Shown one piece after another: positions 6,630 to 34,757 of a stretch of DNA of 64,000 nt (position 1 is the first letter of the stretch; each line of letters starts with the position of its first letter). The position numbers were made by a program, and so were the translations under genes. Under the pieces are notes generated by a model. It worked only from the letters and a program-made list of their open reading frames with translations, did not search any database and was not told where the DNA came from. Location of the stretch: NCBI GenBank assembly GCA_025201365.1, contig JAIXMF010000005.1:124001-188000 (forward strand), in the 5' to 3' direction. The stretch comes from Syncephalis plumigaleata (lineage: Eukaryota; Zoopagomycota; Zoopagomycetes; Zoopagales; Piptocephalidaceae).

Positions 6630-8503
6630 TCAACGAATAAGCTGATTACGTTCCGGTTCTAAGAGACCCTCCACCACTGCTTCCACAATAGTCGCCAATT
6701 CTTCATCCACTCGATTGACATCTTCACCGTAATGCTCGATATACCATTTGATCTTTGGCTCGGTACCACTAGTACGCAATGTAATACGACTGCCGTGTTC
6801 CAATTCAAATGTGATCATTTGTGTACTAGTCGATACGGGTAATGTCGGTTGACCATCAGGCTGTTTAGAATCATAGCCAATGGTCAAATCGCGTGTACGC
6901 GTTACTCGATGTCCTCCTATGGCTGTGGGATAGCGTAGAGCATGCGGGTAACGTTGTAGTATCGGTGAATCCATCGGCGATGGTTGTGGCTCCTCGCCAT
7001 ATCGTATACGGTTGAATAGTTGACGTACAATGATGGGATCGTAACATTTAACGTAAGCATTATTTGAGCGGAAGTAGCCGTATTTCTCGTAAAGTGCGGC
7101 CAAATGGTCGGCCAACGTCGTGCCCTTTGCATATAGTCTAGCGGTTAATTGAGCGAAATAGCCAAGTGCACTAATACCGTCCTTGTCGGGCACAATATCA
7201 CCAATCATATAGCCGATGGCTTCCTCGTAAGCAAATGGCACGGTGTAGCCATCAGCCTTCAAACTAATCGCACGATTACCGATCCATTTGAATCCAGTCA
7301 AACATTCCTCGACGTGGAATCCCTCCACCGAACCGATACGCGCTAGCATTTGCGACGACACAGCCGTGCATATCATGGCAATCTTTGACAGTTCGATATG
7401 CTGACGATCAACGCAGTCACGCCATAGTGCATCGGCAAATAGTACGCCTAGTTCGTTACCGGTAAATGTGCGCCACGTACCATCCTTGGCTTGTCGTTCA
7501 GCAGCCGTGAATCGATCGGCATCGGGATCATTCGCTAGGATGACCGTAGCGTTAATTGATTCGGCGGTGGCTTGTGCCACGTCCAATGCACCACGCTCCT
7601 CGGGATTGGGGAAGCTCACAGTAGGAAAGTCGGGATCGGGTTCGCATTGTACGCTAATGGGTTTATACGCCGGTAGCGAGAAGCATTCAAACACTTGTTG
7701 CGCGTAGGGATGGCCTACACCATGCATCGCAGTATAGGCGAATGTGACGGGACAGCTGGCATTAAGGGTTGGATCACCCACGAGTGCACTCAATGCCTTG
7801 TAGTAAGCCGGTAAGATTTGATCAATTGGATCCATGCACAAATCAGCAGTGGCACTATCAACTAGTGTCTTATCCCATAGCCATGGCTCTAGATTATCCT
7901 CGATCGCTTTAGAGATGCCACGATCATGCGGTGAGATAATCTGGCACGCGTTGTCCCAGTACACCTTATAGCCGTTGTCGTCCTTTGGATTATGCGATGC
8001 CGTGATCATAACACCACAGGCGGCATTTAGATGTGCCACACCGAATGGCACTAATGGTGTATGCACTAAACGACGATAATAGTAAACGCGTACACCTCGA
8101 TGCAGGAATGCAGATGCAGTTAAACGAGCGAACGACTCGGAATGATGACGATGATCGTGACCGATAACAATGCCACGGGTAGCGGCGTCTTTAATGGTGC
8201 GCAACACGTAGTCACATAGTCCTTGAGATGCTTGCAACACGGTCAACTCGTTCATATTAGCGAAGCCAGGTGCCATACGTGCACGTAGACCTAATAACGC
8301 AGCATGTCTTAGCGATATTCCTTCTTTTGTTTATCGAAATATGGAATACCTGCTGTGCCAAATGCAATACGCGGTGTCATGAGTGACGTGAGAGCTGACG
8401 TGTCACCTGCATCTGCGAGTGTTTGTACCGCCGCTCTAGTCTCCTCATTCTGATCCATACGCAACCACTGCTGCGTCAATAAGTTAACAGCGTCAGTATT
8501 CAT
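6630..8503 (-). CDS. Phosphoglucomutase/phosphopentomutase (PGM2 family)
   Basis: Alpha-D-phosphohexomutase family member, of the Pgm2/yeast Pgm3 (PRM15) branch that interconverts ribose-1- and ribose-5-phosphate and can act on hexoses. Two exons, 8503-8350 and 8290-6630, joined across a GT-AG intron inside FGTAG|LRARMAPGF, the family's first signature. Phosphoserine loop TASHNPKDDNGYKVYW, metal loop NDPDADRF, sugar-binding EEAIGYM and C-terminal phosphate loop RTSGTEPKIKWY are all intact. About 600 residues, the family norm, with no frame break. ATG at 8503 is in frame and gives a normal N-terminus (MNTDAVNLLTQQWLRMDQ). Confidence 0.93.
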
Positions 8504-17700: not shown

Positions 17701-20700
17701 CCGTGATGAGATGCTCGCACTTGCAACGTTTAATGGCAGGTAGATTCGTTAACACGGTGTCGGCCAGTAGATTAAGACCACGTGCCACCATGCCAAGTGC
17801 CTCGTCAAGTGGAGCCGTGTCGCTGGCATTGCTCGAGTCGGACATGGTCGTTAATGCCTTCTCGACGGATTGCGTCCATACAGCTTGCGCCGCCAACACG
17901 ACCAATTGAGCCGGGTAACGATCGATCCATTCGAGGAAGGCGGACGTGCCGAGTTCCGATCCCAGGAAGAAACCGTTCATCTCGACTACCGCCTCGCCTA
18001 GAAGGACGGCCAACGACATGCGCATCTCCTTCTCAAGTAGGGCTAGCCAGTCATTGATCTTCTCGTTGTCCTTGATGGAGATCGGTGTACGGAACATTAC
18101 TTCCTCGCCTTCACGCGATGACATGCCAAGAATAGTGGACAGGTCCTCGTTAAGTACGATGCTATTGATACCGGCGAACATCTTCTTGAAGTGCTTCTGA
18201 ATACGCATGATATCCTTGCTATTACCGATGATCTCGAGTAGATCTTCATCACCGACAAAGTAGAAACGAGGGAAGCTGGATCGTTCCCGTTCCAAGTATT
18301 CGCCGAGTGCCTTCTGGATCTTACTCAATAGATCGGCGAGTCGTTCGAGTGACTTTTGGATGTTTTGAATATTTAGAATATCCAATACGAATGGCGACTT
18401 GTACACCTTCTTCATGACAGTCAAGAATTCCGTGTTGATATTCTGGAAGCGTGATGTCTCCACCGGCATTAGATGCTTAATGGCGGCACTGCCCGTGAAG
18501 ATACCTTCAAGATTGGCCCATTGTCGTTGCACGTCAATCCAGACATCGAACAATACGTGGATGCGATTCAGCTTCTCTTCCCAGCTGGACGCTTCCTCCT
18601 CGAACACCTTGTAGTAGGGCGAGAGACGCATCGCTTGTAGAGAGTTCAAGTGTTCACCGCATTTGGCAAATAGTTCATCCCAACCTTTGATAAGACGACA
18701 CCTAAATAAACAATACTTAGTAAATCGCGATAGATAAAAGATATAGTTGTTGCACTTACTTGTTCTGGAAGTTGACCAATTCCAACACGTAATTCGTCCA
18801 GGTTTCCTTGACTTGCTTCAAGAATTCCTCAAGTGCCATTTCACCTTGAGCTACCGTGATCACTTCCCGTACCACTGCTTCATTGGTCTTTAGGTCAAAG
18901 TCCCATAAATGGCCAACTGTCATCTCCGAGAGTAGTATCGTTTTGTCGGCACGTAGCATCTTGAACAATTGACGCCAATGACGTTCGCGTAGTGCATCCG
19001 ACTTCAACTCGGTCAGTAGCACGTTCACCTTAATATAGCCACGGATCGTTTCTTGCATGTACTCAAAGGCAGCATATTGCCGCATGCGATTCGGCATTTC
19101 TTTGGTGGAGTTCATTAGATTGTTCAATTGTTCTCGCACCTTACGTGGAACAACACTCGTCCATAGCGTGTCCTTGATCTCGTAGATGGATTGCCATACA
19201 TTAGCCAGTGCAGACCAGACCGATTTGAGATCGCGTAATTCCTCGAGTACCGGTTCTAGTCGATTATCGCTGGTGAGTTCAAGATCCAATGCTTCCTTGG
19301 CACGACACAACGCATCGTATTCATCCTTGGATCGAGTGACACGTCCTTCAAAGATGTTCAGCGTATTGGTGGCGATATCCGGCTTAATATCGCCTTGAAC
19401 CGGTTTGTTCGACTCCCATTCACTGACTAGAGCGCGAATCTTCTCCTCGATAACCTTATCCTCTGCGATAATCTTCATTTGCAGTCCAGCTATCAATGGA
19501 GAGAACAGCAACAACAGTATAAACGAGTTAATCATCTAGTGAAATACTAGTGCCACTACCACAAATACTTACCGACTTGTTCTTGAATGGCATTATTCTT
19601 ACGAGTGAGTATTTCATTGAATGCACTCCACTCGCCTTCGATCTGATCCACATAGAGCCAGTCGTTGGGAATTGATATCGCTGGCGTTCCAGCGTCTTTT
19701 GTCCTTGACGGAACAGTTCAACGTCGACCGACCACTTGCTTACTTTCTTCTTCAAGTCTTGCAACAACGTAATGAACGACACAGCCTCACTAGTGGCAGC
19801 ACTGTCCACCGAGTGTTGCTCCAAGTCGAATCGCGCCTTCGACACGGACGAGTGGAATTCACGCATGCCATTACCAAGCATAGTACCGAACTTGTTAAGC
19901 AATTCACGTTGCCATGAATCGTACTTGGCGTTAACCTTGCTTTGCACCTGTTCGTAATCAATAATCATTGGACCGAATGACTTTTCCGTTTCAGAGTTGT
20001 CGAAAGTGCCGCGCGCCTTCTTAATCTCCAATAGAATTTGTTGCCATTGCGATAGATCGTCGCCTAGTCGTGTTTGCACGTAGTTCGACTCGAGATCCCA
20101 GAGCGATTGGTATTGCAGCCAGATGTTAACGTATTCGCCGACTTGTTTCACCTTGTTCTCGATCATCTCGTACACTCGCTCCAACGAGTCATCACCCATA
20201 CGCATTAGTAGGCTGGCGTAAGTTTGATCCTGCTCATGGATACCGTGCACGTTCAAACCGAGATCGTAGCGTGTACTCTGCACGCGTGGTAGATGGCAAA
20301 CGATAGCAAGCCACGAGTGTAGCTGATGATACCAACTGGCACGAGCCTGTTCGATGGGTGGATCCAGGTACATGATCTGATTACGAATACGAATCTCGTG
20401 TACGAGCACTTTCAATGCTGGACGTGCTGCATCCGTTTCACCATCGGCATCATCGTCTATGGCTAGATTGCCACCGCCAGCACCACGACGACGTAGCTTC
20501 TTCTTGGCATTCAGTTCACGTTCAAGATTGTCGTCTTCGCTGGCATTTTGGAATTCGTGCATCCACACCTTAACCGCTTGTTGTAGACGCATGTTAAGCA
20601 CGGATTCGACCTTACGATCGAGAGCGGCCACCCAGTCATTAAGATTGGAGTAACCTTCGATGTTCAATCGATCCACGAGCTTCTGAATACGATCCAATAG

Positions 20701-23700
20701 TTCGGCCAGTTTCTCGTTATTATACGAGCAGTGCTGCAATTCCTCCACGGCACTGGCGATACTCTCGTAGTAATCGATGAGCGCATCGACCTTGTCGCGA
20801 TAAATGCTAACCACATTAGCAAATTCTCGAACAAACATCACATGACGACTTTCACGACCATCCGTGTTAGCTCCGTAAGTGACGGCGAGAGAGCGATGCG
20901 TTTCGAACGTATTAACAAAGTAGTCCCAGCGTAGCGTGATACCTTTGCTAATCATTTGCTGCACATCACGATGATAGCCGGCCACCAAAGCGGTAATATC
21001 GCCATGACTATCGACTTTATGCACGGTTTGCGTGTAGGTACGCGTAGTCTCCATTAGACTGACGGCAAATGGATAGACTCGCTTGGCATCCTTGGCGATG
21101 TTGTTAATGGAGTGCGGCACTTGGAAACCAAGCCATAATAGATTGCGCACCTCCTTGAATAGCGTGATTACTTGAGCATCAAAGTTTACACCCAATTGTA
21201 GCGCGTTATTCATGGCGCGATTACGTGTAATGGCGAAAATACGACCAGAGATCTTGAGATCACGATTCGATATCTCGACAACCCAGCCGTCAAACACTTT
21301 ACGCGTATCGAGCTTCTGTCGGAAGCCATTACTTTCATTCTGTAGACGCTGACCCTCGGCGTACATCTCCCAGCCCTTGCCTAGAACATCCTCGACACGT
21401 TTCATGTACGTCTTTAGTTGACGTTCAATCTGACGCGCCCAGATAATTGCACCGGAAATGGGCGGCAAGTCACGCAGCTGACCCATGTGGTAAGCCTCGG
21501 AGCTACGATAGTTTTGCGTGAACTTTTCGTGTAGTCGCTTAATATCGTCCTTGACACTATCGATAAGCTGCGTTTGATACTCTTGAATGGCACCACGAAT
21601 CTTGGGACGAACGAATAGTGCGTTGAATTTGGAGAAGACGCGGAACATTTCATTGGCGTTCTTGGCCGTACCAAGACGATCACGTAGACTGGCGATCATC
21701 TGGTTCTCGACACGGGAGACTCGCTCGTTATAGGCATTCTCAGCAGCGACCCACATCTCCGTGCCTTCGGCAGAGACATCCAATACGTCGATGTTCTTCA
21801 CCGATTCATAGGCCAGCACGACTTCTTCAACTGCGTCGATATCCTCGGCAGCAATGGGTTCCACGGTAGCTTCACCCTTGGTGGCAACAACTGGACGAGC
21901 CATTACACGTACGATTGTTTGATGCAACTGTTCGTGTTGTTTACGGAATGTACACACGATGGAAACACGTTGTCGAAGCATGTTATGCGCTGCATTAATC
22001 TTGATGGGCAAGAATTTTTCGTTACGTCTACGAGTGACTTCACGAGCCACAGCGGTAAAACCACTGATAAGCTCATCCCATGTGCTAAACACCTTTTCTG
22101 CACCGGCAGTCGCCTAGGAACAATCGTAGATTACGTTAGAATGGCTAAAAGAAAGAGAATAAAACCATTTACCTTGTCAAAGTCATCGTAATCCATATAC
22201 ATAAGACGTCGACTACCAAGAACACGAAGTAGTTGATCGTTCAAATCACGAGAGATAGCCTCGACCAAGGGTAGAGCACGTCGAATTGGATAAGGCCTAG
22301 TTATACCGGTGTATTAGTTGATGCTCATGAAGTGTAATAAGCAAGTGATGCAATCATGTTTACTTACGATAAACGTAGCTTTCGATTCAAATGACTAAAG
22401 ATCATATCCAATGCCACACGACAACGATCGACATCGGTGGCCGATAAAAGCTCGTTCAACGGGAAATCCTTCATCAATTGATTATACTTGAAGACTATTG
22501 ACCATTATTATTATTATTTAATAATCATAGCATATGAATGTTACTTACCTTTCTCCATGCCTTCTTCAAACCGGTATCCGCCAAGAAACTAACAGTAGCG
22601 TGGAATCGTTTGGCATGCTTCAAAATATCCAACGTAAGCTCTAGAGTGATGTAATCAGTAAACGTGTAGTAATACAGCTAGAATAACTAACTACTTACGA
22701 ATCTGATCGCTCTTCAGCTGTTCATCAATACGTTCAAGTGCACGCTCCATACTAAGCCAAAAGTTGATTTCTTGAATGGCTTGTCCGGATGCTGGATCAC
22801 GCGACAATTTGGTAACACGTTGGATTTCCTTGATCCAACCATTGACATCGGCCTGCAAACGATTAAGGAAAGACGAATCGCTGAGAAGGGATTGATCGAT
22901 GGCATCGACCATTACTCGTCGACCTTGTTCGCGACACTATAATGAATGAATAGGGGAAGAAGAGAACGGTAAGTGCACAATTACTTATTATTATAGATAG
23001 ATTATGTGTAGATGTACAACATGCATTACCTTGTCAACTACACGCTGAACCACGGGATGGATTAAAAGATTAATCTCGGGGATTTCAACGTTCTGTTGTA
23101 AATGCAACAGCGACAATTCCAATTCGGCAAACTTCTTCTTTGCCATTGGAATACCCATTCGTGCATCCTTCTCTGGATCACGCTTACTAGCACCGGAATT
23201 GGTCACTAGTTCTTGCTTGCTCTTGGAACTGACATAGGCATTGAAGTAAGGACTAACGGCAAGATGGATATACGCGTGTAATGCCTCGTATGGGCTGACC
23301 ATGGTGGTGGTGCCCACGTTGTTTGGCATACCCGCTTCATCGGCCGATTCCACTGTGGGCGATGTAGGCAATGGTGTGGCGGCCGTGGCATCCGACTCAT
23401 CCTCCGAGGCTGGACCTGGTAAGTTGATGAATTGCAATTGAGACTGCAAAGGACGTGCTGCCTCCAGAATAGACTGACGCTTGATCAATGCCAATGATGC
23501 TACCAACGAGTTGGAGTAGGTTATTTCCGACTTGATGGCATAGCTAAAAGTGAAACGAGATGACGATTCTATCAATGACAGGTAATAAAGTATTAGCAAA
23601 CGGTGTCATTGCTACAAGCTATTATCACACACTAACCATCATTACTCTCATCGGCTCGTTCAACACGCTCCTTGATCACATAGATCACTTGACATTGCGG

Positions 23701-23913
23701 ATCACTGATAAAACGACGACATAAATCCTGTGCATCCGGATAGGAGAAGAGCGAGGTGGACACGTCCTCGGTGCATGCACTAAGTACTAGAGGAAGTAGA
23801 CGCTCTAGATACTCACGTAGCATGTACGGCTCGGCAGGTGTGGTGGCTGCTGCTGCCGCTGCCTCCAATGCTTCCGTACTTACAGTACTGGCCAGTACCG
23901 TATCATCCTCCAT
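8785..23913 (-). CDS. DYN1: Cytoplasmic dynein 1 heavy chain
   Basis: Minus-end-directed microtubule motor, moving nuclei, spindles and organelles. About 15.1 kb with some 17-20 exons, coding for roughly 4,600-4,700 residues, the usual dynein size. Order from the start (ATG 23913): tail/dimerisation region (to about 20.0 kb), linker (about 19.5-17.5 kb), AAA1 with P-loop [15 protein letters not shown] split by the intron at 17.32-17.41 kb and Walker B CFDEFNR, AAA2 GPSGSGKT (about 16.28 kb), AAA3 GPPGSGKT (about 15.12 kb), AAA4 GVSGSGK at an exon end (about 14.09 kb) with FIMDESNVL, stalk coiled coils flanking the microtubule-binding domain (about 12.64-12.85 kb, [14 protein letters not shown] and [12 protein letters not shown]), then AAA5, AAA6 and the C-terminal domain. 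Functional P-loops in AAA1-AAA4 and the single tail type indicate cytoplasmic rather than axonemal dynein. Six single-base frame breaks occur, at about 9.60, 13.46, 15.23, 15.69, 16.39 and 19.67 kb; each is repaired in meaning by one missing base and homology continues at once, so they look like assembly deletions. Confidence 0.95.
17332..17355. repeat. (AAT)n microsatellite in dynein intron
   Basis: About eight ATA/AAT units inside the intron that splits the AAA1 P-loop of the dynein gene. Likely length-variable; no function visible. Confidence 0.8.
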
Positions 23914-24580
23914 TATAGACGAGATTGATGGCGTATAGACTGTATACGCTCGCTTTAACTAAGTAAAAAAAATGAAATACACAATAGCCTGCGGAATAGT
24001 AGTAGAGTTAATCAGCTATGCTTCTTTATTATTGGATGAATACTTACGCGTTGCAATGTGTCTTCATACAATAACGCACACACACGTCAATACACGCACA
24101 TGTATTTACACGTATATCGTGCTTCAACTAGAATCAACAGTAGTTGTTCACCTTGTAGAATAGAAGAATAAGATGAACAGATGAAGATGAAGATGATGAT
24201 AATGACGTGGAGGGTTAAGTAATAAAGAAAGGTAAAGATGGAGACGACAAACGGTGGGGCGGTGTTTTATGAGTTCTGTAATTGTCCGCAAATAGCCATT
24301 GGGACACATCATCATTTACACTATCATTATCACTAATCGCTACTACGCAATGAATCACATCAGTATCCCCTGCAATCCTTCTTACGTTGCAAATGGATTG
24401 CTACATTGATTGATTGGTCAGTGGGTGTGCTCCACATCATTCTGATTGGTTCAATGCATTGCACGTGTCATTCTATGGATATCAACTATGTCATACGCGT
24501 TGCTTATAGCCTATATAGTATTACATTTTATTGATTATGAGTGTAGCAAGTAAAGAAATGCTACAAGAGTACAGACACAA
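23914..24580. promoter_or_regulatory. Dynein upstream region / intergenic
   Basis: A 670 bp stretch between the dynein start and the 3' end of the next leftward gene. It contains CA/AC-rich tracts (about 24080-24115) and purine-rich sequence (24160-24260). No coding region, RNA gene or clear TATA box was found. Confidence 0.4.
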
Positions 24581-25412
24581 TCATTTATCACGCTCTCGCC
24601 ATAGTTCGGCCATTCGTTGAGCACCACGCCAGGCAACGCGGAATGCCTCACCATCAATGGCATGCTGGTAGAACTGCCAAAGAATACGCTGTTGCGTTCC
24701 ATTCTCCCAACTCTCCATATAGCGTTGACCCATATTCAATACAGGTGTAAATAGACGATTCGTCATGTTTTTACCTTAACAATACAGCATAAATGAGCGA
24801 TTATGAGCATATCAAGTAACAATGACACTTACCATATTTTAAATAAACATCAGTAGCTAGCCATGGTTCCATAATCTCATACTGATAATCATCAGGCATT
24901 GATTCCTCACATCTAACGAAAAGTGTAATCTTATGATTAGTCATTCATGTTCATGTATCATTGTTACTACTGCTACTTACTGTACACGTCGATTACGTTC
25001 CTCCCAGGTTAATATCATAGGCTTTGCCGTATCTATCGGTCATCAATAATAGCATTCGTATTTTATCGTATTCAATACTCACTAGCTTCATCGCGTAAAC
25101 AAGCTGGTGTACCACGTAAAAAGCGTAGAAACCATCGATGCTCCCAGGATAGAAACTGCCTCTCGCTAGCTGGTTTCTACACATATCATTGACTTATAGT
25201 CTATGTAATTATTTCTATTGTAGAATAAGACTTACAAATTCACGACGTAAACAATATCGATTACAGTGAGGAACCTTTTTCCTCTCCGGATCTACATAAC
25301 AAACCGTGACACACCACTGCTTCGAACCATCGCTTCCTCGACGCTGACCACGATTGACCGGAGATCGCTGGTCCGATGACGACGATACTGGCGGTGGTGT
25401 AAACAATGACAT
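24581..25412 (-). CDS. Hypothetical Trp-rich protein, about 200 aa
   Basis: Not recognised. Five exons can be read from ATG 25412: a Ser/Pro/Arg-rich, disordered N-terminus (MSLFTPPPVSSSSDQRSP...), CNRYCLRREF, then after a GT-AG intron KPASERQFLSWEHRWFLRFL, RGTPACLRDEA, ILTWEERNRRVQ, ESMPDDYQYEIMEPWLATDV and a C-terminal helical block MTNRLFTPVLNMGQRYMESW through WRGAQRMAELWRERDK. Splice signals are ordinary (gtaag/gtgag, tag). It is rich in Trp and Arg and lacks membrane segments or a signal peptide. Size and charge would suit a small mitochondrial or ribonucleoprotein factor, but that is a guess. Confidence 0.65.
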
Positions 25413-25671
25413 ATTGGAAAAAAGGAAAGAATGTGCTTGCTCTCCTTTTAAAATAATTGTATTAGACTCACTATTTGTTAGAATTAACAGGAATCACGTG
25501 CACTCATTCAAACGCGCGCATGTGAGTCATCTACGTCATCTACATCATATATACTCTTTCTTCTCCAAAATCTTTCTGTTCCCATTTACATTACTTTTAT
25601 TTACTACATTATAGCTCCTTTCTACTTCATTTAAATTGCTCTCTTATTTATTATCTATCTATCAACAGCGT

Positions 25672-25700
25672 GCACTGTAGTTAATGAACAACTACAGTGC
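25672..25700 (+). promoter_or_regulatory. Perfect 11-bp hairpin in 5' leader
   Basis: GCACTGTAGTT (25672-25682) and AACTACAGTGC (25690-25700) are perfect reverse complements with a 7-nt loop. It ends 15 nt before a canonical gtaagt donor at 25716, so in the pre-mRNA it would sit in the last part of the first exon. Confidence 0.7.
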
Positions 25701-25792
25701 TTATTAATTAACAAGGTAAGTTAATTATTATTAGGACACGACATTTCATATTTGCTGTTAGGTACACCCTTTTAAATGCTGTATCAAAAACT

Positions 25793-25994
25793 TGCATCGC
25801 CAACGTGACTAGACCGCAAGGTGACAGACGGAAATCCTATGCCGCGGGACTTTAAAAGGCATGGGGTGTGTGATATCCCGTCACGAGTAGGCCAATAGCT
25901 TGCGTATCGTCCCAGGTACCGACCAATTGTTTTCAGCATACAATAGTGTATATCACTGTTGTTGTTGAAAGCTGTTATTGGTCTGCGAGATGCA
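25793..25994 (+). ncRNA. Structured RNA unit 1 of a tandem pair
   Basis: Core blocks: 25802-25831 (AACGTGACTAGACCG start), 25840-25865 (TGCCGCGGGACTTTAAAAGG start), CCCGTCACGA at 25877-25886 and TCGTCCCAGGTACCGAC at 25907-25923. Pairings visible: hairpin ACC-GCAA-GGT (GNRA loop, 25813-25822); TGCC/GGCA (25840-25843 with 25858-25861); CGGGA/TCCCG (25845-25849 with 25876-25880), which crosses the previous stem and so forms a pseudoknot; GTGAC/GTCAC (25821-25825 with 25880-25884); long-range GGCCAATA/TATTGGTC (25890-25897 with 25976-25983, one G-U); closing TGCATCGC with GCGAGATGCA (25793-25800, 25985-25994). GACGG (25827-25831) could pair with CCGTC in competition with GTGAC/GTCAC, a switch-like alternative. 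No known eukaryotic riboswitch signature recognised. Confidence 0.7.
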
Positions 25995-26001
25995 GTAAAT
26001 G

Positions 26002-26170
26002 AACGTGACTAGACCGTAAGGTGACAGACGGTACTCGCATGCCGCGGGACTTTAAAAGGCATGGGACACATACAGCCCGTCACGAATAGATTTGATGACT
26101 AGGGTGTCGTCTCAGGTACCGACAACAACGCGCGGTAGGTGACGATCTGCCGTGCGCCGTTATCAAATCT
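26002..26170 (+). ncRNA. Structured RNA unit 2 of a tandem pair
   Basis: Starts exactly 200 bp after unit 1. The first 30-nt block (26002-26031) differs from unit 1 by one base, which turns the GCAA loop to GTAA, still a GNRA loop. The 26-nt second block (26040-26065) is identical. CCCGTCACGA (26076-26085) and TCGTCTCAGGTACCGAC (26107-26123, one change) are kept. The long-range helix is replaced by unrelated sequence that pairs perfectly over 9 bp: AGATTTGAT (26088-26096) with ATCAAATCT (26162-26170). Conserved loops with a re-sequenced but preserved helix are the pattern expected of a selected RNA fold. Confidence 0.7.
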
Positions 26171-26187
26171 GTTTTGTCATTTACTAG

Positions 26188-26954
26188 ATGTTTGATACTA
26201 ATGAGCATGGGGTCTTCTTTCTTAAAGGTAAGTCTTTATTATCTATTAACTAATAGCTTTACTAACACACAGCAATAGCACAAATGATTAGAATTTATTT
26301 AATGATGTGCTACCTTCTATTAATTACAAAGCTACTACTTGGAATGCTACACCTAGCTTTTACTAATAAAATTCGATACAACATTATTACATCGTTATAG
26401 ATTGATCATTATTGCATTATTATTCATTAATAATACAATCTCGACTTATCGCAGTCCACAATTGTCTAGTAGTGAAAAGTTTACGATTGAAGAGATGGAA
26501 GGTAATGTCAAGTAGATAGACATATAGATGGGTGATGATGTTCATACAGCTGAATAACATATTAATTCGTATCATATTAGTTTGGTGTGTGCAAGAACGC
26601 GTATCGGATGAGGATGATGAGCAACAACAGCCATCTGTCTCGATTCTTGATCGAAATCCCATGCTACTGCATTGCTGGAGATGGCTGGACGTACGATGTA
26701 TTCCAAGCAAGTTCGTGATCCTGATATGGATTGGATGATTAAGCCTGGTTGCTGTACAACAGGAGTGTTCCAACAGGTATTGCTTGAATAAACTGCACTA
26801 GCCATTTACATACTATTGTCTGTGTCCATTCTAGTCTGCTGTAATCATGGCACCTATTCATGTCCAATACATAGTTTATTGTCTGTGGTACAAAGATAAT
26901 AGATGGTACAAGTGCATTATGACGTATAGACAAGCCAGGAGAAATGGCTACTAA
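26188..26954 (+). CDS. Hypothetical protein downstream of the tandem RNA
   Basis: Not recognised, and exon structure is provisional. Best-supported coding exons are 26455-26501, 26581-26776 and 26835-26954 with gtaatg/gtattg donors and cag/tag acceptors; they read LSSSEKFTIEEMEVWCVQER, SDEDDEQQQPSVSILDRNPM, then YSKQVRDPDMDWMIKPGCC, FQQSAVIMAPIHVQYIVYC, LWYKDNRWYKCIMTYRQA. One frame change at about 26685 is needed, consistent with a missing base. Translation may start at ATG 26495 (MEVWCVQER), or at 26188 with exon 26188-26227 spliced to 26273 (a short open frame to 26400 with a hydrophobic stretch). The Asp/Glu/Gln linker and Cys/Trp/Tyr-rich C-terminus match nothing I know. Its interest lies in being the likely target of the upstream RNA. 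Confidence 0.4.
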
Positions 26955-27540
26955 TGGCTACTAACGGCTAATGTGTATATTGTCGTGTCAATCGAACTTC
27001 CATTAGTTTACAAGGACATTTCCGTACAATATGTGATTGCTATTTTCCCGAATGTCACTTCCCTAATTAGCCGTTAGACCTCCATGGACGCACGATACAG
27101 CAAGATGATCGAAAGCGGGACAAATCGAGTCATATCATCATGAGAAAATAGAGCGGAATAAGGGTAGGATTGCAAATGCGGTAATAATGCCTCAATTTGA
27201 TGTGCGCAAATAGATGTCTAGACGTTGACTGTTTAATAACTCGTACCATTCTAATCGTGGTATATTTCACATCTAATCATTGCTGGTATAATAATGGCAG
27301 TAATATAAAAGTATGCATTGATCTAGTGGAGGCATCGGTATCGGTATTATGCTATACCACCATTCTGCTTGTCTATACTGTTCTATCTTGCCTATCAACT
27401 CGAACCACTTTACTGTTCATAATTAATTAGTGTGTTCCACGGCAATAATAGCAACATATTCAATTGCTTTATTTAATTCTAATCCACTGTCAATTGCATT
27501 AGCTTGACATTATTACATTACACTTACACTTGCTATAATC
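26955..27540. other. Intergenic, no feature seen
   Basis: About 585 bp between the unknown gene and the ceramidase. A short tandem of ggctacta/acggcta-type units (26945-26972) follows the stop codon. No coding region or RNA gene is supported; the ceramidase promoter should lie at the right end. Confidence 0.4.
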
Positions 27541-30149
27541 ATGTTTGGCTCCATCTCTCGCTCGGCCCTTGCCTGCGTGGCATTGACTTTGGCATCTGCT
27601 GCCATAGGAGTTGGTGCCGACTATAATGTAACTACATCATAGATGAGATGATCCATCATGCTAACCATTAGAATGGACATGTACACCATGTAGATTGGAG
27701 CGGGTATTGCCGACATTACTGGGTAAGTGAGAATGCAATCAGTATATATCATTGCTGCCATGCTAATCTACATGTATCACAATGCTTACCTAATCCATCA
27801 ACAAATGACAGACCTATTGGTAAGTGTATTCGACATCACAGTCATTACTGCACAATGTGTCGTACTAATATCCTATCCCATTCTGTTGCACTACTATTTA
27901 GCGGAAGTCAACTTCATGGGATATGCCAATCTCGAGCAGAAGGGTGCCGGTCTTCGTCAGCGTACCTACTCGCGCGCCTTCATCGTCCACGACACCACCA
28001 CTAATAAGCGTGTCGTGCATGTCACCACCGACACCGGTATGATGTCGCAGTTTGTGCGACAGCGTGTGCTAGACAATCTGGAGAAGAAGTTTGGCACGGG
28101 TGTGTACACACGCGAAAACGTAATGATCACCGGAACGCATAGTCATTCTGGACCCGGTGGCTTCCTTGGCTATGTGCTCTACGATATCAGTATCCTTGGC
28201 TGGATCGAGCAGACGGCGCAAGCAATCACCACGGGTGTCGTGTTGTCGATTGAACTGCGCATCAACGCTTGCAGGCAGGAAGCATCACGCTCAGTGTTGG
28301 CGAGTTGCTCGAGGCAAGCATCAATCGCTCGCCATCCTCGTACGAGTTTAATCCAGCGGAGGAACGTGCTCGCTACAAGTACAACACCGAAAGGACATGA
28401 CGTTGCTGCGATTCAACGATGCATCCGGCAAAGGTATTGGCATGCTTAATTGGTTTGCCACTCATGGCACCAGTATGAACAATACCAATCTGCTGGTGTC
28501 CGGTGACAACAAAGGGTGAGTATGCCAGCTGGACTACTCGAATAGAATGTCGATACTTACCACACTGCGATACATAGATACGCGGCCATCAAGTTCGAGC
28601 AGACCATGAATCCGGCAGAAAGCAAGACCGGCCTATCGAATGGCTTCGTGGCTGCCTTCAGTCAGTCCAACATGGGCGACGTGTCTCCGAACATCGAGGG
28701 CGCCAAGTGTCTCGACACCGGTCTGCCATGCGACTACGACAGGAGTACTTGCAACGGAAAGAACGAGTTGTGTGTTGCTCGGTACGTAGAACATACATGA
28801 TATTTTGGTATGACATGCTAACTGACTGGCCATTAGTGGTCCTGGATGGCGACAAGGTGACTTTGCCAGCAATCAGATCATCGGTGATCGTCAGTACAAC
28901 AAGGCACGCGAGTTGTATGATGGCACGCCGCAACGAACACTTTCTGGTCCGGTTGACTTTCGTCACATCTACCTCGACATATCCAATGCACCGTTCACCT
29001 ATGACAATGGCACCACTGGCACCACTTGCAAACCAGCCATGGGATACGCGTTTGCCGCTGGCACAACAGATGGTAATAGTAGTATTACATAGTAGCAGCA
29101 ATGTGTCACATCTAATGCAATGCTTTATTGCTCATAGGTCCCGGTCAGTTTGACTTTTATCAAGGACAGAATTCATCCAATCTATTCTGGAATCTAGTTG
29201 GTTCTGTTGTCACTAAGCCACCAAGCAAGGAACAAGCTAAATGCCATTATCCAAAGCCTATTCTCTTCAATACTGGCGAAGCAACAACACCGTTCCCCTG
29301 GCAACCAGCCATTGTTGAGCTACAAGTATTCCGCATTGGCCAGCTGTTTATCGTGGGTGTCCCAGCCGAATTCACCACCATGTCCGGTCGTCGTATGCGC
29401 GATGCCGTAAAGAAGGCGGCAATTGCCCAGGGTATCGCCGATGAGAATGCCACCATTGTCATCTCGGGACCAAGCAACACCTACTCGAGCTACACCACCA
29501 CACCCGAGGAATACGCGGTCCAGCGCTACGAGGCAGGCTCCACCATCTACGGACCAGGCACGCTTCCGGCCTACATCCAGAATGCCGTCCAACTAGTGGA
29601 GGCCATGGCTAACAACACGCGCGTGGCTTCCGCTCCAGCTCCACCCGACTTTTCAAGCAAGTTCATGACACTGCAGACCGATGTCGTCTTTGACGCAGTT
29701 CCCATCGGCAAGTCGTTTGGCGATGTTAGCACGAATGTCAAGTCATCCTACACGCGTGGCAGTACCGTGCAAGTCATCTTCTGGACCGGTCATCCCAAGA
29801 ACAACCTACTGCTCGAGGAGACCTACATCTCCGTTGAACGTCTCGATACCACCACGAACACATGGATCCGTGTACGCGACGATGGCTACTGGAGCACTCG
29901 CTACAAGTGGGACAAGGTCAATGGCGTCGGACAGAATCGCGCTATCATCGAATGGGATATCGAGTCAGACACCATATGTAAGTCGACACTATCTAATAAC
30001 ACAGAGTAGCATGACATTAAGCACACATACTGTACATGTATCTATTAGTGGGCACCTATAGGATTCGTCATTTTGGTCATCATCGTACATTGTTCCAACA
30101 TGTTGTCGCACACACTGGTACTTCAGCCACATTCCAAGTGATCGCGTAA
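27541..30149 (+). CDS. Neutral ceramidase
   Basis: Hydrolyses ceramide to sphingosine and fatty acid; secreted or at the cell surface. ATG 27541 opens a signal peptide (MFGSISRSALACVALTLASA). Exons 27541-27627, 27694-27722, an 8-nt microexon 27812-27819, 27902-28515 and four or five more. Signatures: GAGIADITGPIAEVNFMGYA, THSHSGPGGF (zinc-site histidines), HGTSMNNTN, SGDNKG, SNMGDVSPN (nucleophile serine motif) and GPGQFDFYQGQ, with the C-terminal Ig-like domain (FWTGHPKNNLL, YWSTRYKW, IEWDI, RIRHFGHHR). About 740 residues, the family norm. Two one-base frame breaks at about 28255 (before LQAGSITLSVGELLEASI) and about 28395 (NTE|KDMTLLRF, an aaa run) are most simply missing bases. Functionally paired with the ketosphinganine reductase at the right edge. 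Confidence 0.93.
27812..27819 (+). other. 8-nt microexon of the ceramidase gene
   Basis: ACCTATTG flanked by ag (27810-27811) and gtaagt (27820). It joins ..ACT GG | A CCT ATT G | CG GAA.. to give ITGPIAEVN, exactly the conserved ceramidase motif; omitting it breaks both frame and motif. Confidence 0.85.
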
Positions 30150-30447
30150 TACTTGCATACTATTATGATGATTGCAATATGAGTTAATATAGTAACGACG
30201 TAATGTTATAATGTCCTTTTAATAATAATAACGATCTAATAAACAGCAATGATATCGTATATCGCATTAACAAATAGAATAATGCATTTAACGTGGCGGT
30301 TTCGTGAAATCTTGCGAGCCAATCACCTATCACCACATTTGGCGTTAGGACCTGAACGCACAGTCAATAAAAGGAATGGCATTTCTGATATTGCTACCAC
30401 GTCTCTTTACAATACTTGTTCTTCTTTGTGTCACTTTGAAATACATT

Positions 30448-31291
30448 ATGGATCTTCCTTCCGTGTTGCGCGACCCGTTAGTGGCTCTAATTACACCCGC
30501 ATGCTACACCGACCTCTTCCTCAACTTTAACCTGTCCAATGTTGACTGCATCAAGTTGCTCATCTCAAAGGGTCTAGGCATGGGCTTAGTTGCAGGCGGT
30601 GCACTATTGAAATTGCCACAGATTGCGAAAATAGTTAATGCACGCAGTGGCGAGGGACTCAGCGTCAATTCTTTGATTATCGAGACGTTAGGCTTCGGTC
30701 TAATGCTCGCGTATAATTTGCGTTTGAATAATGCATTTAGTACTTACGGCGAGGGTTTCTTCATTTTCGGACAGAATCTGATTATTCTAATGCTTATCTA
30801 CAAGTATAGCGGTAACTTGCTCACGGGACTAGCGCTGGTACTTGCCTGTGTGGCATCCTTCTTTGCACTGCATTTTGAGAGTATCACGTCGCTTTCCGTA
30901 CTCGCCATGTTCCAAGCCGGATCTATACCGTTGCTTTTGGCAGGTAAAATACCACAAATCATTCAGAATCATCAGGATAAGAGCACGGGACAACTGTCGG
31001 CATTCACCGTATTCGCTATGTTTCTGGGTGCTGCAGCCCGTGTATTCACGACATTGCAAGAAGTCGATGATCTGGTAGGTTCATTGATGATTAACAATGG
31101 TAACATGATTGGATTGGTGTCTAACAAATGCACTGCTCTCCTCCTCATCTCCTTTCATCTAGATTCTCATTGTTGGAGTTGTATTGTCCGCCACACTCAA
31201 TGGTGTAGTAGCAATGCAAATGCTCGCCTACTGGAATACCGATGCTTCAAAGGCTCAAACGAAGAAGAAGAAGAAGAAGAAGGCACACTAA
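30448..31291 (+). CDS. MPDU1: MPDU1-like PQ-loop protein (dolichol-P-mannose utilisation)
   Basis: ER membrane protein needed for use of dolichol-phosphate mannose and glucose in N-glycan and GPI-anchor assembly. Two exons, 30448-31074 and 31163-31291, give 251 residues (human MPDU1 has 247). Family features in order: CIKLLISKGLGMGLVAGGAL, the first PQ loop LKLPQIAKIVNARSGEGLS, several hydrophobic helices, the second PQ loop GKIPQIIQNHQDKSTGQLSA, FLGAAARVFTTLQEVDD, and after the intron VLSATLNGVVAMQMLAYWN with a poly-Lys tail (seven Lys, a GAA/AAG repeat at 31259-31282), which resembles an ER-retention type ending. ATG 30448 gives MDLPSVL; an in-frame ATG at 30376 adds a hydrophobic stretch and is less likely. 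Confidence 0.92.
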
Positions 31292-31412
31292 TTTATTGTG
31301 ATAGTTTAATAAACTCGTTTATAATTACTAGTGCATTATCTGGTTGGAGTATAATCCTACAATGAAGACGATGTATAACTAGTGAGTGTTTTAAAGAAAA
31401 TAGGAAAGCAAA

Positions 31413-33075
31413 TTATTCGCAGGCAAGCTTGGCATCAAAACTACTTAGAGCAATGCCGAATGCTTGTAGAAGGCACATTGGATACTGAAAGTCCATGGTG
31501 AAATGATCACGAGCAATACGACCAAATTGCATGATAATATAGTCCACTATAATTATTAAGATTTGTTAAACGATCAATAAATGAATGAATGCTTGTGTAT
31601 GTATGTAAATCACTTACAATCATTTGGATGCACTACTTGAAATTCTTAACTGATGCCAGTGTGACTCGTCCGTTAAAGTTGAGCACGTACGATTGAGTTT
31701 CCTCATTCCATTGCGGCGACTTGTTATGCAACTCTAATGAGTCCTTGTTATTTTTACATTATACCGTCCTAGTAACGTGTCTTCTTTCTAATTACAACAC
31801 ATCATATCATATCATATCCTATTAGGTATACAGCAACGAGTATCATATTAGTGATAGACTTACTTTGGTTGGACGATGTGGAATACGTTGCTCATCTGGT
31901 CCCATACGACGCATTAGAATAGTCATACGGCGAGGTCCCTTGAATCCTAGTATATTGGGTTCCTATACAATAATAATAATAATAATGCATCATAGTCAAT
32001 ACTCTCTATCCAGCATTACTATTACTCATATATATATATTGTATCTCATTCCTTACATAAATGATACCCGCTAATTCTTGGCGTATACTATCGTTTTCCT
32101 TGCTAGTTTCTTTGTCATTTCGGAATGGATTACGTCCATCATCGTAGACAACAAATGCCGTACCAATGAAATTAGATCTAGTTTGCATTAATAAACAAGC
32201 CAATTCATGTAATATCAATCATGAGCTTACCGCACTTTACCGACAACTCGTTCCTGTTGATCCTGATCACATACGATAATTTCATAACGAGAGCCACCTG
32301 TTTGTCGACATTTCCGCGCTTTTAACAATGGAACACCATGATCCTGATGATCATCGCGGTATAGTTCGTACGTTGGATAGAATCGATTTTTACCATCTCG
32401 TTTACGTACGATACTACATAACAATCGTTCACCCTGACTAATCGGTCTAATAAAGCAGTAATATTAAATAGGTTCTAATGAGTAGCCATTCCATTACATT
32501 ATCACATACTAACTCACCGGTATAGCATGGCATCCACACTCGCTGCATCTCCCGTAAGTGATAATGGCACGTATTCATTCAGCATAATACTAGGCAATAA
32601 TGAAGTCCTATTCTCATTCTGATCTTGTTGTCCATTTATACCGCCATTTTGATTAGTTGTAGTAGTGTAGTACTTTCATTGGGTAATGGTCCAACTGCTG
32701 CTTCATTCGATTCATTCTGCTAGATGATGATTAACTATTAAGGCGATCATCATCATCATCATGTAATCAATTAATAAAAATACATACCAATCCCTCCATC
32801 GAATGGAGTGTATTTCCCGCTAACGTATCAGCCAGTCCCGTTGATGTATCGGTAATGGCACTTGACTCTGTATTTGTCGGTTGCATAGACGGTGATTCCA
32901 CGGATACTGCACCATTACTACCGTTGTCCGAGTTAGAGGTCGACGACAAACCAGATATCGATAGTGGTCGTGATACGGGTGTTGTACCCCCTACAGCTGC
33001 TGTTTCCGTGACCATACTATGCAATGATAAAGAAGGGGCAAGTGTAGATGAATTGGATACAGGAAGTGAAGTCAT
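31413..33075 (-). CDS. Tubby-like protein
   Basis: Phosphoinositide-binding beta-barrel protein of the TUB/TULP family. From ATG 33075, a Ser/Thr/Gly-rich disordered N-terminus (about 110 residues) leads to the tubby domain: [105 protein letters not shown] and the classic end [20 protein letters not shown], then [19 protein letters not shown]. The terminal SSFDxKLACE is diagnostic. Around eight short exons. Family members bind PI(4,5)P2 and in animals act in ciliary trafficking; here the cellular role is unknown. Tubby genes are absent from most Dikarya. Confidence 0.9.
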
Positions 33076-33627
33076 TACGATAAGCGGAATAAAGGAAAGG
33101 TTTGCGTCTACTTTACTTGTTGTTATGTTCAAGGACAAACAGAGACGAGTACAATGTTTACAGTTAACTATATTGTTTTTGCTTACGCAATGTTGTTACT
33201 AGATGTACAATACACTAATAATATTGCTAGCAGATGATATTAGAGAAGGTGAACCCTAATGAAGAAGGTATAAAATAGGCCAAATGCGAAATTGAGAAGA
33301 AAGAGGTGAATAGCCGCAAATTGTCTGTGACGGCACTTGTGTGGCAAGTTATTAATATGTGTATGTGTGTGACATTAATATTGAGCTGTATGATAATCGT
33401 AATAGGATAAGGTCACATTCCTATCATACGTCTATAGGTTGAACGAGTCTCAAGCAACATGCTTAATTACTTGTATATTGTATTGTACTATTACTATGAG
33501 AATACGATAAATCTGTGAATAAAACGTAATTGTTTACTTGTAGTCATTTACAATCATGTCAGTTAATAATATACTAGCAAGTAATGTAATATTTACTCGC
33601 CAAGCTTTCATCTTCACATCATTTTAA
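33076..33627. other. Intergenic between tubby-like and NTMT1 genes
   Basis: About 550 bp holding the tubby-like promoter and the 3' end of the methyltransferase gene. AT-rich; no coding region or RNA gene seen. Confidence 0.4.

Positions 33628-34757
<1,130 letters not shown>

Follow-up and report, generated by a model that had tools for sequence, protein, structure and literature searches.

The glycine riboswitch is a tandem riboswitch of bacteria, and SAM-II/SAM-V reportedly form another bacterial tandem pair. Spliced noncoding transcripts can serve as hosts of small RNAs, as in the snoRNA host genes. To our knowledge, few RNAs outside bacteria and the housekeeping machinery are at once large, intricately folded and internally repeated. 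Guanidine aptamers are said to occur in vertebrate RNAs, according to a title from 2025 which suggests that the eukaryotic list may be growing. Fungal TPP riboswitches (RF00059) are intronic and involve alternative 5' splice sites; in the part of PMC5882874 consulted, the RNA lies between donors and ahead of the acceptor, a layout close to the one described here. Li and Breaker (2017, PMC5640933) report structured RNAs from noncoding parts of fungal genomes, a number of them with unknown function.

The RNA described here lies in a window of 64 kb, the whole stretch of DNA analysed, which corresponds to C329:124001-188000 of a 32.6-Mb eukaryotic assembly in 383 contigs; this assembly was the genome searched. 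It is made up of two tandem units exactly 200 nt apart, unit 1 starting at 25802 and unit 2 at 26002. As in the fungal TPP riboswitches, a structured RNA in a fungal nuclear genome stands between two donors and before one acceptor, and the resemblance in layout that the earlier note had pointed out is borne out by the donors on either side of the RNA and the acceptor behind it. Unlike those riboswitches, it has tandem units, no RF00059 match in the window or among the genome candidates scored, no CUGA in 25519-26403 and no thiamin gene seen nearby. With the tandem bacterial riboswitches (glycine, SAM-II/SAM-V) it shares two folded units in series and a possible pseudoknot, but it is eukaryotic, has splice sites and no Rfam match, and no common regulated gene was found. 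It resembles the snoRNA-type host transcripts in its putative noncoding exons, short introns and structured RNA cargo, but the structured RNA seems to be exonic and Rfam finds no snoRNA. None of the motifs in PMC5640933, compared by the 15 motif headings only, evidently fits. The words tandem and Zoopagomycota are absent from the main text of PMC5640933, and no such tandem RNA is mentioned in the consulted parts of that paper and of PMC5882874. No similar tandem RNA was found in the open-licence literature among the matches listed.

Comparison with Rfam 15, a check proposed in the earlier note, gave no match to a known family in the 64 kb at the gathering score. At E<=10 the search with two copies of the RNA gave only two weak hits for each, all of them outside the units and on the opposite strand. 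TPP (RF00059) was not matched at the gathering score or at E<=10, nor in the own genome at E<=0.001 among the 49 of 835 first-look candidates that were scored; in the control search 10 of 14 control genomes gave matches. The CUGAGA core motif of TPP, named as absent in the earlier note, is indeed missing, CTGA being absent from 25519-26403.

Several other candidates were rejected. A box C/D snoRNA would need a C box and a D box (CUGA), and no CTGA occurs in 25519-26403; UGAUGA at 26093 lies inside a helical arm (B1, below). For telomerase RNA, neither CCCTAA nor TTAGGG is present on the plus strand of 25519-26403. A group I intron and an HDV-like ribozyme were considered for GACUAGA and CGGGA and had no Rfam support. 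One pattern match in IMG/VR, in surroundings that by eye are protein-coding, was not listed by the covariance model and was taken as chance; the other IMG/VR pattern scans gave no matches. Four stretches of prokaryote contigs were also discarded: the model gave E 3.9-5.6 for three of them and did not list the fourth, and L057 and L058 are by eye coding repeats.

The RNA is classed as a new structured RNA and not as a riboswitch. The preferred explanation, given about an even chance, is a small noncoding transcription unit on the plus strand, with a new tandem structured RNA as its central exon, which is possibly optional. That it is a noncoding RNA is more likely than that it senses a metabolite on behalf of a neighbouring gene. 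Its transcription and splicing, the pseudoknot and any function are predictions from the DNA. A tandem RNA maintained through compensatory change in an early-diverging fungus offers a definite sequence, structure and splice map for testing.

The two units and their fold

The two units agree in four blocks with identities of 29/30, 26/26, 10/10 and 16/17 (in unit 1 at 25802-25831, 25839-25864, 25877-25886 and 25907-25923), which reproduces the earlier counts exactly. The spacing of exactly 200 bp holds in the window and also in two further copies, L007 and L008. The intervening spacers, described before as unrelated, are unrelated or nearly so: 3/7, 3/11, 10/21 and 29/79 of their columns are identical. 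A window search for the core of block 1 allowing up to 3 mismatches gave two matches where chance predicts 0.05, and the match of the blocks between the units is not explained by chance. The duplicated module, 25519-26403, exceeds the span given in the earlier note. The elements of the proposed fold are as follows.

25672-25700, plus strand: perfect hairpin of 11 bp in the putative first exon, identical in three copies (1 of 2000 shuffles has one as long)
25781-26198, plus strand: tentative outer helix closing both units (25781-25788/26191-26198)
25792-25995, plus strand: unit 1 with tentative closing helix P0.1 (25792-25798/25989-25995)
25804-25885, plus strand: domain A of unit 1, with P1 25804-25809/25880-25885, P2 25813-25815/25820-25822 (GCAA loop) and P3 25838-25843/25858-25863
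25846-25848 with 25877-25879, plus strand: possible pseudoknot of unit 1, GGG with CCC
25887-25986, plus strand: domain B of unit 1, with B1 25887-25899/25974-25986, B2 25904-25908/25915-25919 and B3 25929-25948/25954-25972
25994-26185, plus strand: unit 2 with tentative closing helix P0.2 (25994-26002/26177-26185)
26004-26084, plus strand: domain A of unit 2, with P1 26004-26009/26079-26084, P2 with a GUAA loop, and P3
26046-26048 with 26076-26078, plus strand: possible pseudoknot of unit 2, GGG with CCC
26087-26171, plus strand: domain B of unit 2, with B1 26087-26099/26159-26171, B2 26104-26108/26115-26119 and B3 26129-26140/26145-26156

Domain A of each unit contains P1 (CGUGAC/GUCACG), a GNRA hairpin and the hairpin P3 with a loop of 14 nt, which carries GGG facing a CCC just before the 3' strand of P1. 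Domain B has three parts: the arm B1, then a conserved short stem-loop (GURUC GUCYCA GGUAC), and a long hairpin which is different in unit 1 and unit 2. The GNRA-capped hairpin (ACC-GCAA or GUAA-GGU) recognised in the earlier note is present in all six units of the three copies. The UGCC/GGCA stem is likewise found in all six, with the variant UGUC in unit 2 of L008, and so is the CGGG/CCCG complementarity. The earlier proposal of a TGCC/GGCA stem crossed by CGGG(A)/CCCG stands as far as the complementarity goes; the final G of CCCG is also a partner in the helix CGUGAC/GUCACG, so that only GGG/CCC is free for a knot, and a GGG/CCC pseudoknot is what the sequence would allow. The letters of the domain A motifs hardly vary and the motifs therefore give almost no covariation evidence. 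Long-range helices, of which one had been proposed per unit, do exist, the 13-pair arm B1 being by far the best. P0.1, P0.2 and the outer helix are proposals only, since helices as long were found in 200, 122 and 645 of 2000 shuffles, respectively, which makes all three weak alone.

Base pairing, folding and substitution on the plus strand

Arm B1 is the best evidence for an RNA. All 13 pairs are possible in each unit and in the same register (5' strands 25887-25899 and 26087-26099). Between unit 1 and unit 2, eight of the 13 pairs are changed on both sides, two on one side and three are unchanged. In shuffles of the B1 stretches of the two units a 13-pair helix appeared 75 and 78 times in 100000. 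Compensatory base changes, as required of a functional structured RNA, are present in this arm.

The central 466 nt have a folding z of -5.98 on the plus strand against -1.98 on the minus strand, which together with the pairing of B1 gives good support, for the plus strand, to the folded tandem RNA suggested before. For single units z is -3.7 to -4.0 on the plus strand and -0.67 and -2.33 on the minus strand; of the other copies, L007 has -3.03, a value equalled by 1 shuffle of 60, and L008 has -4.72. Among 640 windows and strands scanned, unit 1 ranks second lowest and unit 2 sixth, with one other lower than unit 1 and four others lower than unit 2, so that, composition allowed for, equally good folding is found elsewhere too. 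The lowest value in the scan, -5.3, belongs to 23001-23200 on the plus strand; this 200-nt window is the antisense of frame 22991-23599 on the minus strand, which is presumably dynein.

Twenty-eight columns of 25768-26213 vary among the three loci. Fifteen lie in blocks swapped between units and the remaining 13 comprise four unpaired columns, one deletion and eight paired substitutions. Scored on the window's own fold plus the named helices, which favours the window, six of the eight paired substitutions keep the pair, each via G-U on the plus strand, and two (25946 and 26103) break it. The deletion, at 25781, breaks one pair of the tentative outer helix, and one of the unpaired changes converts the GUAA loop to GCAA, both of them GNRA. 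In unit 2 of L007 the substitutions at 26103 and 26106 and the unpaired one at 26112 also match unit 1 and may stem from conversion; with 26103 and 26106 set aside as one more converted stretch, five of six substitutions would be pair-keeping. Only one of the eight, 26042 in P3, falls in domain A, the helices of which are nearly invariant.

The alleles of seven letters at 25832-25838 and 26032-26038 occur in mixed combinations across units and loci, and by their sequence the exchanges between unit 1, unit 2 and the loci have the character of concerted evolution by short conversion tracts. The identity of the core overstates selection because domain A letters are exchanged between the units. 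Exchanged short alleles were noted at 25832-25838, 26032-26038 and 26066-26077 and at their equivalents in L007 and L008.

With conversion blocks set aside, substitutions are fewer inside 25668-26213 than in the flanks (25560-25667 and 26214-26400, gaps left out): 11/518 against 22/295 for window-L007 (p 3e-4), 10/517 against 19/295 for window-L008 (p 1e-3) and 7/518 against 24/298 for L007-L008 (p 3e-6), three comparisons that are not independent. When the blocks are included, the p values are 0.002 for window-L007 and 0.017 for L007-L008, and for window-L008 the inside is not significantly slower (21/545 against 19/295, p 0.13). The structured part is significantly slower than its flanks in all three comparisons only with the unit-to-unit conversion blocks set aside.

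Splice signals and the proposed transcription unit

The units are surrounded by splice-like signals, from which the following parts of a transcription unit are proposed (commas mark splice borders).

25519-26403, plus strand: whole duplicated module, from the promoter-like region to the 3' exon; 25780-26230 is found at three genomic places
25547-25553, plus strand: TATA-like stretch, putative promoter, in three copies
25716-25761, plus strand: candidate intron A, 46 nt, AAG,GTAAGT...TTAG,G, lacking a UACUAAC branch point
25762-26227, plus strand: structured central exon with both units, 466 nt
26228-26272, plus strand: candidate intron B, 45 nt, AAAG,GTAAGT...TACTAACACACAG,C, fitting the strict donor-branch-acceptor pattern
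26273-26403, plus strand: putative third exon with a hairpin 26276-26282/26306-26312

The donors stand at 25716 and 26228, the GT of the second starting at 26228, and the acceptor, UACUAAC...ACACAG, ends at 26272. The elements had been placed between a gtaagt donor and an AG,GTAAGT site, and both donors are indeed present, as is the acceptor. The signals are kept in L007; L008 is without the CAG acceptor of intron B and has an AG 4 nt further on. In the window the strict donor-branch-acceptor pattern has three matches on the plus strand and two on the minus strand, intron B included. The rarity of this pattern is not the rarity of introns, because the ceramidase and dynein introns do not fit it. 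These are 55 nt (ceramidase, 28782-28836) and 56 nt (dynein, 14083-14028) long; a third dynein intron (10866 or 10898 to 10808; 59 or 91 nt) has an ambiguous donor and was excluded from the lengths.

An intron reaching from 25716 to 26272 would be 557 nt long, about ten times the two gene introns. With gene introns of 55 and 56 nt, and with intron-like stretches of 46 and 45 nt on its two sides, the RNA looks more like an exon of 466 nt than like intron content, and its placement inside a 5' intron in the earlier note is doubtful. Retention of the RNA as an exon appears at least as likely as its removal with an intron. From putative exon 1 to exon 3 the G+C content is 0.29, 0.28, 0.47, 0.27 and 0.28; the putative outer exons are as A+T-rich as the introns, and the step in G+C marks the structured part and not the exon borders.

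The preferred transcription unit would run on the plus strand from about 25.55 to 26.4 kb, most likely with three exons and two minimal introns. Its central exon would fold into two copies of one unit, each with domain A followed by domain B: in domain A, P1 would close the GNRA hairpin and a second hairpin whose loop may form the GGG/CCC pseudoknot, and domain B would consist of a long arm ending in the short conserved stem-loop together with a long variable hairpin. Both units probably work jointly as a single folded body, the RNA acting in trans or binding protein. Use of the outer splice sites, 25716 to 26272, is possible; it would skip the folded exon, and splicing could in this way switch the RNA on or off.

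Copies, surroundings and rival explanations

Searching the genome for the core ATGCCGCGGGACTTTAAAAGGCATGGG with up to 3 mismatches gave six matches, which form three pairs each exactly 200 nt apart (reversed control 0). Two further core patterns recovered the same six units and none more (reversed controls 0 and 3). The intact copies are those of the window, L007 and L008, the latter two being 118 kb apart on contig C318. By BLAST the window is 94.5-94.7% identical to L007 and L008 over the module, and the ends of the match are abrupt. At a fourth place, L059 (also on C318), the 3' exon region remains at 88% identity; of the units only a short piece of one hairpin is left. The second donor there is GATAAG and the branch point TACTACAC; in this single case the splice signals look as if they had decayed once the RNA was lost.

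A dispersed repeat adjoins the module in L007, L008 and L059. It occurs at no fewer than 37 further places (40 of 341 first-look candidates were scored) and also lies next to protein-kinase fragments in L062, L065 and L066, where Pfam PF00069 was found. Inverted pairs longer than 100 nt are present in four of 12 loci checked (L062, L059, L065 and L066), and the arms in L062, of 873 bp, are 99.4% alike. The upstream block of L007 matches the same repeated cassettes. To judge from their sequence context, the C318 copies are embedded in cassettes that recombine. None of the 64 kb of the window contains the repeat, and between 20001-34000 of the window and L007 only the module matches, neither flanking block being shared.

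Genes close to the tandem RNA in the window are those for dynein heavy chain (minus strand), neutral ceramidase (plus strand, about 27.5-30.0 kb) and a PQ-loop protein. The ceramidase gene is the first nameable one downstream of the module and has the same sense; its start is predicted near 27541, about 1.1-1.3 kb on. Further away, a phosphoglucomutase frame (6630-8276, minus strand) has a metagenome protein as its top match (89% identity over 89% of the query), and its best organism-named relative is from Syncephalis fuscata, at 72% over the whole length; the source is accordingly very likely a zoopagomycete similar to Syncephalis. When 10 frames were compared with Pfam, no downstream gene common to the three intact copies was found, three being a small number, and no recurrent link of the RNA to one gene or pathway was seen among the frames tested. 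Behind the acceptor, L007, L008 and L059 have an open frame of 80 codons, which is shifted in the window copy. Its pN/pS values of 0.53, 0.90 and 0.73, from only 3 to 6 synonymous changes, give no clear coding constraint.

The earlier note had read the elements as a riboswitch or cis switch for a gene. In the form of a cis-acting riboswitch or protein-bound switch in the leader of the downstream gene, choosing donor 25716 or 26228 for acceptor 26272 and responding to a ligand other than TPP, this explanation is unlikely. It agrees with the two donors around a tandem RNA and the one acceptor, as in the TPP layout in the consulted part of PMC5882874, with the same-sense ceramidase gene and with competing pairings that can be drawn (GACGG with CCGUC of P1). 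It has against it the length of the intron, far above that of the two introns read, and the lack of a gene common to the copies: beyond L007 come the dispersed repeat and two minus-strand frames with no Pfam families, and beyond L008 the same repeat and then Mad3/BUB1, about 2.9 kb on. A stand-alone RNA is favoured over a leader switch because no common downstream gene was found among the frames tested and the frame after the acceptor is under no clear coding constraint. A sensor could also act on the noncoding RNA itself, the tandem units responding to a metabolite, an ion or an RNA and deciding whether the structured exon is kept or skipped. This is quite improbable; if true, a fungal nuclear genome would encode a riboswitch-like switch of a kind other than TPP, in the form of an exon that can be removed from a noncoding RNA.

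That the module belongs to a selfish or mobile element, spreading with the dispersed cassettes while the folded RNA serves the element in replication, protection or translation, is rather unlikely. The repeat beside three of the four places, its many further copies, the kinase fragments, the nearly identical inverted arms and the cassette-like block upstream of L007 fit such an origin, but both blocks are missing around the window copy, no more than three copies and a remnant turned up, inspection by eye revealed no target-site duplication and the module contains no replication gene. Very improbable is a non-functional leftover, in which chance pairing and gene conversion in duplicated DNA mimic a conserved RNA. 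The conversion blocks between the units, the mostly deleted remnant at L059 and the pair-breaking changes at 25946 and 26103 with the deletion at 25781 would suit it; the two-sided changes of B1, with all 13 pairs kept, and the mostly pair-preserving changes between loci argue against it and for the preferred structured noncoding RNA.

Some further features of the surroundings were noted. The dispersed repeat is C/T-rich (L007:3496-4445, L062:2635-3507 and L062:8638-9510) and possibly represents the ends of a non-autonomous DNA transposon; as long inverted arms it encloses, in L062, a cassette with kinase fragments and, in L059, a frame that resembles a gene. Protein-kinase-like gene fragments lie in repeated cassettes in L061, L062, L063, L065 and L066. 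The frame between the inverted arms in L059 (2268-2965), beside the RNA remnant, is by eye a putative cysteine-rich secreted protein with a hydrophobic C-terminus, and a long frame near a repeat copy in L066 (6872-9499) resembles a retroelement reverse transcriptase.
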